In this document: piece after piece, positions 47,693 through 58,162 of the stretch | Layout: every line of letters begins with the position of its first letter | Numbering within the stretch: position 1 is the first letter of the stretch | Source of the DNA: Acinetobacter corruptisaponis | Lineage (GTDB): Bacteria > Pseudomonadota > Gammaproteobacteria > Pseudomonadales > Moraxellaceae | Assembly: GCF_030053775.1 (NCBI RefSeq) | Contig: NZ_CP125669.1 | Span: 2,661,962 to 2,725,961 of the forward strand | DNA length: 64,000 bases | Direction of reading: 5' to 3' | The notes under the pieces: generated by a model | Told to the model about the DNA's origin: nothing | The model's input: the letters and a program-made list of their open reading frames with translations, nothing else | Databases searched by the model: none | Position numbers and translations under genes: made by a program

Positions 47693-49174
47693 TTAGCATG
47701 AGTGATTTTTAATCTCAGTTGCTAACTTTTGGATATTTTCCATAATTTCATCAACCGTATGTGCGGCATATCCAAATAGCACACCTGCCCTTTGAAATGA
47801 AGTTTGACAGTAGCGGGATAAAGGCTGGACAGCCAGTCCTAGTTTGCTACATTGAGCAGTGAAATCCTGCTCTGTCCATGAATCTTTCAGCCAACAGACC
47901 AAATGAATCCCTGAATCTGTTACCTCAATGGTTAGGACTTCTGAGAGGTGGGTTTCAATTGCGTGAATCAGCGCTTGCTGACGCTCATAACAGGCTTTAC
48001 GAACCTTTCGCACATGCCGCGCATAATGTCCCTCTTGAATAAACAAGCTCAAAACAACCTGTTCCAGATAAGAACTGCGAGTATCAATATGACTTTTTGC
48101 CAAACTGAATAGGTCAATGAGAGACTCGGGAATCACCATAAAACCTAAGCGAAATTCAGGAAACATCATTTTGGAAAATGTGCCTGAATAAATTACACGT
48201 TGCTGTTGGTCCAGACCCTGTAAGGCTTGAATAGGTCGAGTGCCATAACGAAACTCACTGTTGTAGTCATCTTCAAAAATCCATTTTTGTTGCTGGGCCG
48301 CCCAATCCAACAATGCCAAACGCCGAGTTAAACTGAGTGTGCCACCCAGTGGAAATTGATGTGAGGGTGCGGTGTAAACCAGTTTGGCTTGGGCATAATG
48401 CTGGGTGATGTCGGGAACTTTCATTCCCTCCTCATCACTACAAACTGGATGAACTGTTGTTCCGAAACTACGAAAAACGGCTAATGCGGCATCATAGCCT
48501 GGCTCATCCAGACATACCTGATCCTGTGCCTGTAATAGCGCATAAGCGGTTAAATGAATGGCCTGTTGTGTCCCGTTCACAATCAAAATTTGTTGTTCAG
48601 TACAATTGAGTCCACGTGTAGAGCGTACATATTGGCATATAGCCTGTCTTAAAGGCAGGTAGCCTTTTGAATCATGGGCCTGTCCAATCTGATGATAGGA
48701 TTGCCGCCATGCCCGCCCAAGCAGTTTTCCCCAAAGTTGATGTGGAAATAAATCCACGCAACCCACGCCAACATGAAAGGTGCGTTTACCTTGTGGTAAC
48801 TGCTGTTTTTGCCAGCAAGCTAAATGTTGGGCAAGGTGGGGATTTACATTCAGCGTTTCAGTTTTGGTTGATAGATGAAGATGCTGTTGGGTTTGCGCTT
48901 GGATCAACTGGTCAGGAATGGTTTCTGACACATAGGTTCCTGAGCTTGGTTTGGTAAATAAATAACCCTCATCCAGTAGTCGGTCTAAAGCTGACAATAC
49001 GGAATTACGGGAAATGGACATCATTTCTGCCAAAACTCGGCTTGAGGGCAGTTTTGTGCCAGCAGATAAACGACCATCTAAAATGGCATCCCTGAGCACC
49101 TCATATAATCCATCCCTGATGGAACCTTTTGGTAAAATCAAGTGGGGAAAATAGGCAGAGGACGAAATCGCCAT
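47693..49174 (-). CDS. MocR/PdxR-type transcription regulator
   Basis: 493 residues. N-terminal GntR winged helix (YEVLRDAILDGRLSAGTKLPSSRVLAEMMSISRNSVLSALDRLL) fused to an aminotransferase-like domain with the PLP Lys in YSGTFSKMMFPEFRLGF. It lies 103 bases from and divergent to a GNAT acetyltransferase gene, which it may control. The effector is probably PLP or an amino compound; target genes are inferred only. ATG 49174 is preferred to a TTG two codons earlier. Confidence 0.9.
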   Translation of the reverse strand: MAISSSAYFPHLILPKGSIRDGLYEVLRDAILDGRLSAGTKLPSSRVLAEMMSISRNSVLSALDRLLDEGYLFTKPSSGTYVSETIPDQLIQAQTQQHLHLSTKTETLNVNPHLAQHLACWQKQQLPQGKRTFHVGVGCVDLFPHQLWGKLLGRAWRQSYHQIGQAHDSKGYLPLRQAICQYVRSTRGLNCTEQQILIVNGTQQAIHLTAYALLQAQDQVCLDEPGYDAALAVFRSFGTTVHPVCSDEEGMKVPDITQHYAQAKLVYTAPSHQFPLGGTLSLTRRLALLDWAAQQQKWIFEDDYNSEFRYGTRPIQALQGLDQQQRVIYSGTFSKMMFPEFRLGFMVIPESLIDLFSLAKSHIDTRSSYLEQVVLSLFIQEGHYARHVRKVRKACYERQQALIHAIETHLSEVLTIEVTDSGIHLVCWLKDSWTEQDFTAQCSKLGLAVQPLSRYCQTSFQRAGVLFGYAAHTVDEIMENIQKLATEIKNHSC

Positions 49175-49277
49175 AATCAACTGGTACTTTAAAAATTATA
49201 ATAACTGTATCTTATGATGATACCACTCTCAACACTACACTTTGATCTTCCATAACGAAAGATGACGGAGTGTCAGG

Positions 49278-49733
49278 ATGCAGACTCAGGAAATACAGGT
49301 TATCCCTGTCCAGCAACAGGATTATCAGCAGTGGATACCCTATTGGCTGGCGTATCAGAATTTTTATAAAGTGGCACTTGCCAGTTCCACCACACAAACC
49401 ACATGGCAACGCTTTTTTGATGAAGCTGAGCCAGTTTATTGCGCCGTTGCCAAACGAGGTGAACAGGTGTTGGGTTTTGTACATTATGTCATTCACCGTT
49501 CAACTTGGGCTGAGCAAAACTATTGTTATTTAGAGGATTTATTTGTTTCACCAGAGGTGCGGGGGCAGCATGTTGGCAAGCATTTAATTGAATATGTTCA
49601 GCAGCAGTCCATTTTACAGCAGTGTGACCGCCTATATTGGCATACACAGGAAACCAACTATACCGCACAAAAACTCTATGACTGGATTGCCGAAAAGCCT
49701 GGGATTATTGAGTATCGGATGTGTTTAAATTAA
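49278..49733 (+). CDS. GNAT N-acetyltransferase
   Basis: 151 residues. The acetyl-CoA site is visible: YLEDLFVSPEVRGQHVGKHLIEYV (R/Q-x-x-G-x-G/A type). GGAG is eight bases before the ATG. The substrate is unknown; its position opposite a MocR regulator suggests a small amine or amino acid that the regulator answers to. Confidence 0.87.
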   Translation: MQTQEIQVIPVQQQDYQQWIPYWLAYQNFYKVALASSTTQTTWQRFFDEAEPVYCAVAKRGEQVLGFVHYVIHRSTWAEQNYCYLEDLFVSPEVRGQHVGKHLIEYVQQQSILQQCDRLYWHTQETNYTAQKLYDWIAEKPGIIEYRMCLN

Positions 49734-49780: not shown

Positions 49781-50758
<978 letters not shown>

Positions 50759-50785
50759 TCAAAACATAAAATCCATAAAAAAAGT

Positions 50786-50819
50786 AAGGGATTTTTACCT
50801 TTTAACATAAAAATCCCTT
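50786..50819 (-). terminator. Strong terminator, originally of ribA
   Basis: Perfect 12-bp stem AAGGGATTTTTA/TAAAAATCCCTT with a ten-base loop and T-run on the minus strand. It lies just after the duplicated ribA end, so it probably ended ribA before the insertion. Confidence 0.85.
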
Positions 50820-50858
50820 AATTGCCTTATTTTTAAACATTTTGAAAAAATGAATCAG

Positions 50859-50905
50859 AAGTCATCTTTTTTATATAGGTGATCCATCCGTTCACGTTTG
50901 GTTTT
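50859..50905 (-). repeat. Duplicate of the ribA 3' end
   Basis: 47 bases identical, same orientation, to 51428-51474, which hold the last 15 sense codons of ribA. Here the sequence is not in a functional gene; it lies three bases after the stop of the exported protein gene. Confidence 0.9.
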
Positions 50906-50908
50906 GAA

Positions 50909-51400
50909 TTAAGGCGTATTGAATGGTTTGCTATTTTGTTCAATCAAATCATTAACCTCTTCACCATACATCCAAGTATTGAGAATCCCTTCAGAACTTT
51001 CTAGACCTAGAATATCTAAAAATTGTTCAAAAGTTGTCGCAACTTGCTCTCTATCTTCGGTATCTAAATGATCAGGGTTAATCTGATGAATTCCTGCAGA
51101 GAGTGTTTGGAGTAGTTGTGCTTTTGTTGGTGGCGCTGAATTTTCATAATGTTTTATAAACTGTTGTGCTGTATCAGCAATTTGTTGATTGAGCTGATCT
51201 TTAAGCTGCTGATCTTGAACACCCGTATATAAAATGTTATCACCAATAAAGTGATCTTGTTTTTTGAATTGTTCTAATTGCTGAATGATATTTGCTGTAG
51301 TTGGAAGCATATTCTTGTCCAATGGATGATTTGTCGCTTGGATATAAGATGTACTGAGTAATGGTATAGCAGTGAGTAATAAAACTCTTATAAATTTCAT
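50909..51400 (-). CDS. Exported protein inserted after ribA, DUF4844-like
   Basis: 163 residues. Signal peptide MKFIRVLLLTAIPLLSTSYI. The C-terminal stretch LDTEDREQVATTFEQFLDILGLESSEGILNTWMYGEEVND resembles DUF4844 proteins; function unknown. It starts 24 bases after the ribA stop and ends at the duplicated ribA end, so it lies inside an insertion. It is AT-rich and stands on the same strand as ribA, with no promoter visible of its own. Confidence 0.7.
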   Translation of the reverse strand: MKFIRVLLLTAIPLLSTSYIQATNHPLDKNMLPTTANIIQQLEQFKKQDHFIGDNILYTGVQDQQLKDQLNQQIADTAQQFIKHYENSAPPTKAQLLQTLSAGIHQINPDHLDTEDREQVATTFEQFLDILGLESSEGILNTWMYGEEVNDLIEQNSKPFNTP

Positions 51401-51423
51401 TGCTCAGAGTCCCTGTGGTTATG

Positions 51424-52026
51424 TTAAAAGTCATCTTTTTTATATAGGTGATCCATCCGTTCACGTTTGGTTTTTAAATAATGTTCATTGAATGGATTAC
51501 GACCCACTGTAAGTGGAACACGCTCCACTACATTAATGCCAAGATCAGTCAATGCCTTTAATTTTAAAGGATTGTTGGTGATCAACTTCACTTCTTTGAC
51601 TTGCAAATGATCCAGCATAATGCTGCACATATCGTAACGGCGGGCATCGGCAGGCAAGTTCAACAGCAGGTTGGCATCGACCGTATCGTGTCCCTGATCC
51701 TGTAGGGCATAGGCACGAATTTTATTGGTCAGGCCAATCCCACGGCCTTCCTGACGCAAATATAAAATCACACCCTGACCCGCTTCATTGATCAGTCGTT
51801 GTGTGGCTTGCAGTTGAGGTCCACAGTCGCACTTCAATGAGGCAAAGGCATCACCAGTCAAACATTCAGAATGGATACGCACGAGTACGGGCTGATTTGG
51901 TGCAGTTTCTAGTCCTTTGGAAAGCGCCACATGCTCTTCGCCAGTTGCTGGGTCTTGAAACACGGAAATATTGAAGTCACCAAAAGCGGTTGGTAGCCTT
52001 GATGTTGCAACAAATTCAATTGGCAC
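51424..52026 (-). CDS. ribA: GTP cyclohydrolase II
   Basis: First step of riboflavin synthesis from GTP. Zn-binding Cys are in [21 protein letters not shown] and catalytic residues in [25 protein letters not shown]. 200 residues. The frame is open 11 codons upstream to a TTG at 52059, but homologues begin at (M)[15 protein letters not shown], which is the GTG at 52026. Its last 15 codons are duplicated downstream. Confidence 0.95.
51428..51474 (-). repeat. ribA 3' end, original copy
   Basis: 47 bases at the end of ribA (protein [15 protein letters not shown]), identical to 50859-50905. The repeat unit from copy to copy is 569 bases. Confidence 0.9.
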
Positions 52027-52185
52027 AGAACGCTCACTATGATAATAAAAAACAGTCAAAGTATAGCTTAATGTGTGAAGATTGCGTGAATTGGAATTTC
52101 TGATTTTTCACATAAGTTTTTCTTTTTCATACAAAGCACACAATAATGGTTGATAAACAGTGACATAATTCAGGATAATCTGCCA

Positions 52186-56239: not shown

Positions 56240-58162
56240 ATGAGCAAAACTTTTGCCGAATTTTCCTTACATGAAACCCTACAACAAGCACTTGAAGGTT
56301 TAGGCTTTACTAGCCCGACACCTGTACAGGAACAAGCGATTCCAGCTGCTTTAGCAGGTAAAGATTTATTAGTTTCAAGCCAGACTGGTTCTGGTAAAAC
56401 AGCCGCATTCCTACTCCCGACATTAAATGCTTTAGCGGGTCAGGAAACTTTTGTGCCATTTAAAGAGCGCATGAAAGCAGTGACTCAACCAAGCATCTTG
56501 GTTTTATGCCCGACACGTGAATTGGCTCAACAGGTTAGCCAGGACGCGATTGCATTTGTACGTCACATGAAAGGTGTTCGTATTGCCGCAATCATGGGTG
56601 GTATGCCTTTTGGTAAGCAAATTCAACAGCTTAAAGGTGCACAAGTCATTGTTGCAACCCCAGGCCGTTTACTTGACTTGGTTAATCGTCGTCAGTTGAA
56701 ACTTGATAAAGTTGAATCATTGATCGTTGACGAAGCTGACCGTATGTTAGACCTTGGCTTCTCTGAAGATTTGGAAGCGATCAGTGATCTGGCTGCAAAC
56801 CGTAATCAAACACTCATGTTCTCTGCAACATTTGCGGACCGTATTATCCGTTTAGCAGAACGCATGATGAACGATCCTGAGCGTATTGCGATTGAGACAG
56901 GCCATAGTACTAATACTGATGTAACTCAAACATTGCATTGGACAGATGGTTTTGAGCACAAGAAAAAATTACTGACTCACTGGTTGTCTGACGAATCAGT
57001 TGATCAGGCGGTTGTTTTTGCAAGCACGCAAGAAGATACCGACATGCTGGCTGAAGAATTGGCTGAAGCAGGTCACTCGGTTGTTGCGCTACATGGTGCG
57101 ATGCCACAAACCGTTCGTAACCGTCGTTTACGTAGCATTCGTGAAGGTCGTGCAAAAATTCTGGTGGCAACTGACGTTGCGGCGCGTGGTTTAGACGTAC
57201 CAACCATTTCTCACGTAATTAACTTCGGTTTACCGATGAAAAATGAAGACTATGTACACCGTATTGGCCGTACAGGCCGTGCGGGCCGTTCAGGTCAGGC
57301 GATTACCTTGGCGACTTACCGTGAACGCGGCAAAATTCGTGCCTTGGAAGATTATTTAGATGCGCGTTTAAATGTATCTGAAATCGAAGGTCTAGAGCCA
57401 TCTCCACCTCCTGCACGTTCAGGTCGTGATGGTGGTGGTCGTGGCCGCGGTGGTAATGGCGGTGGCCGTGATGGTGGCGGTCGTGGCCGTGGTGGTTTCG
57501 GCGGTGGTCGTCGTTTTGAAGGTGAAGGTAACTTCAAGCGTCGTGAAGGCGGTGATGATCGTCCACGTCGTAGCTTTGATGACAAACCTCGTGGTGAGCG
57601 TCCAGCGTTTGGTGGTGAAGACCGTCCACGTCGCGAATTCAATTCAGATCGCCCACGTCGTGAGGGTGGTTTTGAAGACCGTCCACGTCGCGAGTTCAAT
57701 TCTGATCGCCCACGCCGTGAGGGTGGTTTTGATGATCGTCCAAAGCGTAGCTTTGGTGGTGAAGACCATCCACGTCGTGAGTTCAATTCTGATCGCCCAC
57801 GTCGTGAGGGTGGTTTCAATGATAAGCCACGTTTTGATGCGAATGATGACAACCGTGGCAATCGCGTAGACTATAAACCACGTCGTGAGGGTGGCTTCGG
57901 CGACCGTCCAAAACGTGATTTTGGTGATCGTCCACAACGTGAGGGTGGCTTCGGTGACCGTCCAAAGCGCGATTTTGGTGATCGTCCACAACGCGAGGGT
58001 GGTTTCGGTGACCGTCCAAAACGTAGTTTCGGTGATGACCGTCCAAAGCGCAGTTTTGGCGATGACCGTCCAAAACGTAAGTTCGGCGGTGAAGATCGTC
58101 CAGCGCGCGGCACTCGTGAGGAAACTTTCGGTGGCGACCGTCGTCGCAAAAATGACTTTTAA
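56240..58162 (+). CDS. DEAD-box ATP-dependent RNA helicase with repeat tail
   Basis: 640 residues. Helicase core motifs in order: Q motif GFTSPTPVQEQAIP, SQTGSGKTAAF, PTRELAQQ, VDEADRMLDLGF, SAT, and HRIGRTGRAGR. From about 385 there is a Gly/Arg-rich tail (RGG type), then repeats of DRPRREGGF and GDRPKRDF units, which bind RNA. RhlE/DeaD-like, probably acting in ribosome assembly and RNA decay, often cold-induced. AGGGTG before 56240 favours this ATG over a GTG at 56228. Confidence 0.9.
   Translation: MSKTFAEFSLHETLQQALEGLGFTSPTPVQEQAIPAALAGKDLLVSSQTGSGKTAAFLLPTLNALAGQETFVPFKERMKAVTQPSILVLCPTRELAQQVSQDAIAFVRHMKGVRIAAIMGGMPFGKQIQQLKGAQVIVATPGRLLDLVNRRQLKLDKVESLIVDEADRMLDLGFSEDLEAISDLAANRNQTLMFSATFADRIIRLAERMMNDPERIAIETGHSTNTDVTQTLHWTDGFEHKKKLLTHWLSDESVDQAVVFASTQEDTDMLAEELAEAGHSVVALHGAMPQTVRNRRLRSIREGRAKILVATDVAARGLDVPTISHVINFGLPMKNEDYVHRIGRTGRAGRSGQAITLATYRERGKIRALEDYLDARLNVSEIEGLEPSPPPARSGRDGGGRGRGGNGGGRDGGGRGRGGFGGGRRFEGEGNFKRREGGDDRPRRSFDDKPRGERPAFGGEDRPRREFNSDRPRREGGFEDRPRREFNSDRPRREGGFDDRPKRSFGGEDHPRREFNSDRPRREGGFNDKPRFDANDDNRGNRVDYKPRREGGFGDRPKRDFGDRPQREGGFGDRPKRDFGDRPQREGGFGDRPKRSFGDDRPKRSFGDDRPKRKFGGEDRPARGTREETFGGDRRRKNDF
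57570..58115 (+). repeat. In-frame tandem repeats encoding the helicase tail
   Basis: Units of about 27-48 bases recur (CGTCCACGTCG, GATCGTCCACAACG, GAGGGTGGTTTC), encoding EFNSDRPRREGGF three times and FGDRPKRDFGDRPQREGG-type units about three times. The repeats keep frame, so copy number may vary between strains without loss of function. Confidence 0.8.

Follow-up and report, generated by a model that had tools for sequence, protein, structure and literature searches.

The ribA-hemF gene slot of Acinetobacter and a DUF4844 allele followed by a second ribA end

Background

MGE-free hotspots turn over their gene content by recombination at the flanking core genes and are over-represented in naturally transformable bacteria, according to a 2017 study (PMC5635113). 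Hotspots of this kind are already known. The gap between ribA and hemF in Acinetobacter spp. resembles them in that variable content lies between fixed core genes, no mobile element is recognisable, and recombination appears to occur in the flanks. However, these hotspots appear to have been described among within-species strains of 80 species, whereas the ribA-hemF slot is small and was compared between species; moreover, the crossovers were located in one case, and one irregular join left a repeat behind. What is new is this slot and its short, located edges.

Integrative elements may target the 3' ends of genes and rebuild them. Homology-facilitated illegitimate recombination (HFIR) was reportedly described in Acinetobacter baylyi by de Vries and Wackernagel in 2002. 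It combines one homologous and one illegitimate crossover in this naturally competent species, and its products were described with a deletion (PMC3240628). In the literature on Acinetobacter, no paper on the ribA-hemF slot was found; in the text that could be searched, the genus and the two genes were mentioned together in one paper, apparently a metabolic-network study of other bacteria.

The window, that is, the whole stretch of 64,000 nucleotides analysed here, comes from Acinetobacter corruptisaponis (contig NZ_CP125669.1). It contains a DUF4844 gene in the ribA-hemF gap, followed by a second copy of the ribA end.

Results and discussion

All features of the locus lie on the minus strand. 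The upstream core gene ribA (GTP cyclohydrolase II; 51424..52050; PF00925, E 1.5e-63) is an ORF ending with the stop codon TAA at 51424-51426. It is followed by a 23-nt spacer (51401..51423), for which visual inspection gave no alignment to those of other DUF4844 species, and by the cargo, an ORF encoding a DUF4844 protein of 163 aa (50909..51400; PF16133, E 1.3e-19; solved homologue 4l3u). Then come the second ribA end (50859..50905), a post-ribA spacer of the empty-site type (50821..50854), the ribA terminator hairpin with both arms (50785..50820), the T tract with the hemF upstream region (50723..50784), and the downstream core gene hemF (oxygen-dependent coproporphyrinogen oxidase; 49781..50722; PF01218, E 1.3e-120). 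The hairpin has 14 bp and a T tract (-15.8 kcal/mol, z -4.7), in agreement with the initial annotation, which had placed a strong terminator after the copy. Between aroE and hemF (47693-49733) are genes for a regulator of the GntR/aminotransferase type and for a GNAT acetyltransferase. Unlike the window, A. baumannii VB958 has aroE adjoining hemF; in its record ribA also adjoins hemF, with nothing annotated between them.

The last 47 nt of the intact ribA (51428..51474) recur exactly and in the same direction at 50859-50905, at an offset of 569 bases; the initial annotation had both the coordinates and the spacing right. This is the longest exact direct repeat of the 64-kb window. The runner-up, of 26 nt, lies in a DEAD-box helicase gene, whose 3' part (57616-57993) contains short exact repeats of 21-26 nt. 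Directly after the second ribA end stand C and TGA; in the intact gene, T and TAA take their place. Ungapped extension of the repeat yields 71 nt at 90% identity. The 12 nt adjoining the 47-nt core (50906..50917), which contain the DUF4844 stop codon, have six mismatches to ribA; beyond these, 11 of 12 nt in the 3' end of the DUF4844 gene match again in register (the CCATTCAAT patch, 50918..50929). When the plus strand was scanned, a 12-nt block in register with ribA reached an equal level of match in 4 of about 64,000 stretches of 24 nt. None of the other 24-nt stretches of the DUF4844 ORF reached this level in the same scan.

To score tail copies, the best ungapped copy of each genome's own ribA end was sought in the first 2,000 nt after ribA. 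The score is 53.5 in the genome of the window; among the other 106 species no copy was above background, the best score being 13.5. The 47-nt core differs from the ribA of each of these 106 species by at least three bases. Identical 47-nt ends do exist between different species, in 9 of 595 pairs of a 35-species set and in 19 pairs among all 107. Since such pairs exist, the identity of the two ribA ends in the window supports, but does not prove, their origin from the same species. The two ends fit two alleles of one species, or a recent homogenisation.

The ribA-hemF gap was compared in 107 species drawn from 174 genomes with a ribA match, mostly by the strength of the match to the ribA end, which was observed in 147 of 175 genomes; the sample is not random, and distant species are under-represented in it. 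The gaps of the other species were classed by the longest ORF, among the matches listed. The initial annotation had proposed to look for empty sites and for other cargo in Acinetobacter genomes, and both are present: 49 of the 107 gaps are empty, 38 contain a HemN-like gene, 10 DUF4844, 2 both DUF4844 and a HemN-like gene, 2 a gene for a 132-aa protein, 2 a gene for a 180-aa protein, and 4 something else. Empty gaps span 65-195 nt, and 40 of the 49 are 125-133 nt long. The 30-species clade of the window has 14 empty alleles, 10 with DUF4844, three with HemN-like genes, two with the 132-aa and one with the 180-aa cargo. In the other species with DUF4844 the order is ribA-DUF4844-hemF (nine species) or ribA-DUF4844-HemN-like (two species), and all are without a tail copy. 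The same two core genes enclose differing gene content among relatives throughout the 107 species, as in a hotspot. The comparison indicates that the gap is a slot that is either unoccupied or filled by small genes that differ among related species.

The HemN-like protein is of the radical SAM type (PF04055), and its match to the HemN C-terminal domain (21.7 bits) is below the cut-off of 24. Its gene stands beside hemF, opposite in direction, in 40 of the 107 species (38, and the 2 that also have DUF4844). HemF is the oxygen-dependent counterpart of HemN-type proteins. The 132-aa cargo matches immunity protein 22 (PF14112) with 22.4 bits where the cut-off is 27; this weak match is a hint of self-protection genes, and of nothing beyond.

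In the alignment, the ribA stop codon is followed in the clade's empty alleles by the spacer, the terminator 5' arm, the loop, the 3' arm and a run of T's. The nine other DUF4844 alleles of the clade are without the spacer and the 5' arm and pick up again at the 3' arm (AAATCCCTTACTTT). The clade's 132-aa (n=2) and 180-aa (n=1) alleles pick up at this arm too, and the motif sits 70-71 nt before hemF in all 12 of these other DUF4844, 132-aa and 180-aa alleles. By alignment and stem search, the 3' arm (50785-50798 in the window) is the common right edge of the cassettes of related species. Within the clade, the T tract and the hemF upstream region are conserved across the empty alleles and those with DUF4844, 132-aa or 180-aa cargo. 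At the position of the terminator, the three HemN-like members of the clade differ in sequence, and no 3' arm motif was detected in them.

The stem search covered 33 alleles, leaving aside G022 and G019 (DUF4844 with a HemN-like gene), G075 (180-aa) and HemN-like alleles from species not in the clade. All 17 empty alleles (14 from the clade and three from outside) and the window have a stem of 10 or more pairs with no more than one mismatch; it was found in none of the nine other DUF4844 alleles and not in the one 180-aa allele. In the two 132-aa alleles the stem is limited to 8 pairs including one mismatch, possibly a 5' arm in decay. Judging by these alignments and stems, the cassettes of the clade replace the spacer and the terminator 5' arm, rather than being simply inserted.

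Among the 13 clade alleles with DUF4844, 132-aa or 180-aa cargo, only that of the window continues past the cargo with another ribA end and an entire unit of the empty type. The empty-type spacer at 50821..50854 aligns with that of the empty-site species and is missing from the other DUF4844 alleles of the clade. The downstream unit of 132 nt shares 82-89% identity with the 12 best-matching empty sites in the clade, with the remaining two scoring lower; the best clade matches to hemF of the window are at 85-88%. Removal of 569 bases from the window leaves a gap of 132 nt, compared with 126-131 nt in the clade empty sites (n=14).

Cassettes are exchanged among relatives of the window. A flank tree was built from dxs, the first 540 nt of ribA, and hemF. 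Filled and empty sister genomes, with full support, are G095 (DUF4844) and G092 (empty), G093 (DUF4844) and G034 (empty), and G158 with G032 (DUF4844) and G033 (empty). The DUF4844 state requires eight changes on this tree, at least five of them on well-supported branches, gains and losses being indistinguishable. The DUF4844 labels cluster no more strongly than shuffled labels (150 of 500 shufflings as low); all slot states taken together do cluster more strongly (0 of 200). The cassettes of G073 and G166 are 96.0% alike, the flanks 83.8-87.6%. Conversely, the sisters G166 and G121 are 96-99% alike in the flanks and 72% in the cassettes. The 132-aa cassettes of G130 and G172, which are not sister species, are 96.1% alike, and their flanks 85-88%.

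At the informative sites, those where the sister G121 differs from G073, G166 follows its sister in the ribA body (94:1), the donor in the cassette (147:9) and its sister again in hemF (107:14). The last 60 nt of ribA are mixed, three sites against three, the final three being donor-like; the last 75 nt before hemF are also mixed, with six sister-like and two donor-like sites. By this pattern, the left crossover lies within the final ~15 nt of ribA, and the right crossover ~25-55 nt upstream of hemF, immediately beyond the 3' arm of the terminator. The same picture emerges if G073 is replaced by G140, with sister-like to donor-like ratios of 88:0 in the ribA body, 3:4 in the ribA end, 19:136 in the cassette, 9:3 before hemF and 115:10 in hemF. 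Some scattered sites of the opposite type persist. For G166 and for G130/G172, then, the history of the cassette is unlike that of the flanks, with crossovers in the flanks, and these patterns indicate that cassettes pass between species via exchange at the flanks. The slot offers a compact natural case of integrase-free cassette exchange between species with edges that can be located, in one clear case on the left to the last ~15 nt of ribA and on the right to the stretch from the terminator 3' arm to hemF. Exchange with short edges at such a small slot thereby becomes testable in a transformable laboratory Acinetobacter. The wider importance is modest. As a side observation, the DUF4844 gene of G121 (L013/L015) is interrupted by stop codons, and its sister G166 has an intact allele close to that of G073, which belongs to another lineage.

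Because an empty-type unit with both terminator arms follows the cargo, a structure unique among the 13 clade alleles, the window locus is probably a hybrid, in which a DUF4844 allele and an empty allele became connected at a single irregular junction. Both types of allele are present in the clade, and the parts of the window stand in the order of the first followed by the second. The DUF4844 allele would have contributed a ribA end and the DUF4844 gene, and the empty allele a ribA end, the spacer, the full terminator and hemF. One crossover would have occurred within the homologous flank. The other join would have used short homology between the 3' end of the DUF4844 gene and the last ~50 nt of ribA, with the junction in the 12 nt that contain the DUF4844 stop codon or adjoining them, so that the product carries a second, non-coding ribA end behind the DUF4844 gene. 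We favour, short of proof, the 11/12 patch as the short homology that guided the irregular crossover, over a copied piece of 71 nt of which six bases may have been altered afterwards.

We infer, rather than observe, delivery of the DNA by natural transformation, the origin of both ribA ends from one species, and which allele was the resident. The nearest relatives in dxs, ribA and hemF did not single out either side as the resident one. The genome contains the ComEC and DprA families, which accords with transformation but says little, since they are also present in the majority of 14 control genomes. The nearest species differ from that of the window by 12-17% in dxs, ribA and hemF, and its branch has no well-supported position within the clade. 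A search for a donor among the relatives yielded none, the flanks being 12-17% and the DUF4844 cassettes 33-40% different from all those compared. A product of one homologous and one illegitimate crossover, as proposed here, is of the kind that HFIR yields, but the window event is inferred from the product alone: the irregular junction is visible, and the parents and the homologous crossover were not observed in the one genome of the species. Under HFIR, the deletion would be hidden in ribA.

As the tail copy is found in one of 107 species, it is most likely a scar and not the customary way of filling the slot. It looks like an informative accident, a by-product of the same exchange process. 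The initial annotation had read the locus as a ribA-terminator unit opened by a 569-base insertion that restored the gene end. Excision of these bases does give a gap of the empty type, but as the usual route of filling such an insertion is unsupported, since 11 other species have the same gene in the same slot and no tail copy. A hybrid of two alleles is a better reading of the locus than a mobile insertion of 569 bases.

It is unlikely that such an insertion was the primary event, with a piece carrying a ribA end and DUF4844 entering an empty site, either as a circle that recombined once or by integration targeted to an end, and the cassettes of other species arising later as deletion products. 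The geometry fits, as the locus minus 569 bases is an empty site of normal length, and the conservation of the downstream unit is about that expected of a resident empty allele. However, no integrase was seen by eye in the insert, DUF4844 has no phage match (50,697 records) and one distant plasmid match (72,556 records), and the other 106 species, including the 11 with DUF4844 beside ribA, lack the tail copy. Moreover, three types of cargo have a common right edge in alleles devoid of a tail copy, so that the same deletion would be needed each time.

Gene conversion could also explain the identity of the 47-nt ends. An old, diverged duplication of the tail would then have had its 47-nt core recently overwritten from ribA, in keeping with the sharp edges of identity: the neighbouring 12 nt contain six mismatches, the core none. 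We regard this as quite improbable, as it requires an extra step and survival of the 11/12 patch, and explains the empty-type unit only if a hybrid origin is assumed in addition. Replication slippage, which can produce short direct duplications and is a known source of them, is very improbable indeed as the cause of a local duplication in a resident DUF4844 allele with no second allele involved, for it gives no source for the empty-type spacer and 5' arm, missing in the nine other DUF4844 alleles of the clade, an objection that falls if the allele of this lineage never lost them.

If the locus is indeed a hybrid of two alleles, recombination between the repeats would delete the DUF4844 gene exactly and restore the empty site. 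A further reading, to which we give little credence, takes the 47-bp repeats as making DUF4844 a reversible module, whose exact deletion would leave ribA, spacer and terminator intact and would let populations of this species switch between empty and filled states without foreign DNA, with the ribA end serving as an integrase-free docking edge throughout the clade.

The DUF4844 ORF has a GC content of 33.9%, compared with 44.5% in ribA and 45.8% in hemF. Its product matches PF16133 at 70.9 bits (Pfam gathering cut-off 25) and belongs to the same family as the protein of structure 4l3u. The initial annotation had described an AT-rich gene for an exported protein between the copies. The base composition bears this out; export is a reading by eye of the N-terminus, which is hydrophobic and resembles a signal peptide. 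The protein has seven residues after the last E-x-N, compared with four to six in the other nine clade alleles (counted by eye), which puts its stop codon near the usual place. Four DUF4844 relatives have a lipobox-like cysteine (LSGC or LNGC), and four have LSGY there; the protein of the window has neither, again by eye. A lipid anchor, judged in this way, may come and go among these proteins. The crystal structure 4l3u is that of a DUF4844 homologue, ABAYE3784 of A. baumannii AYE; the entry gives the fold and names no function. A fold search with a model of the DUF4844 protein (pLDDT 68.6) produced no match below E 0.001 beyond 4l3u, and no paper with the term DUF4844 was found in the text that could be searched. 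Our working guess is that DUF4844 is an accessory exported protein retained by some lineages and not by others.

DUF4844 was found in 14 of 175 Acinetobacter genomes, beside ribA in 12 and elsewhere in two, G150 (after a beta-ketoacyl synthase gene) and G028. At E <= 1e-5 no match was found in the 50,697 phage records, and the one distant match in the 72,556 plasmid records is from a Chryseobacterium plasmid; a mobile element as the carrier of DUF4844 was rejected on these grounds. In line with the initial annotation, which had noted no transposase, neither a transposase nor an integrase was seen by eye among the ORFs of at least 50 aa in the insert (50859-51474), whose sole long ORF is DUF4844. 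Elements that target gene ends share with the window a direct repeat of the gene end flanking the insert. However, in the window no integrase was seen, the repeat recurs in no other species, the cargo is a single gene, and elsewhere this cargo occurs without the repeat. Such an element is unsupported, there being no recombinase ORF by eye in 50859-51474 and the repeat being present in one of 107 species.

Four records of the plasmid collection match ribA: CP040042.1, NZ_CP077849.1, NZ_CP064203.1 and NZ_CP104448.1. One of them (539 kb) contains ribA, hemF, aroE and dxs, and the other three are 3.7-4.1 Mb long; they are probably chromosomes or pieces of chromosomes. The gaps of G108 and G042 (L089, L096) are otherwise empty gaps with ~280 extra bases, which start with GGGTCTGTTGACATTT and end with AAATGTCCACAGACCC, a near-inverted copy. 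By eye, this insert looks like a MITE.
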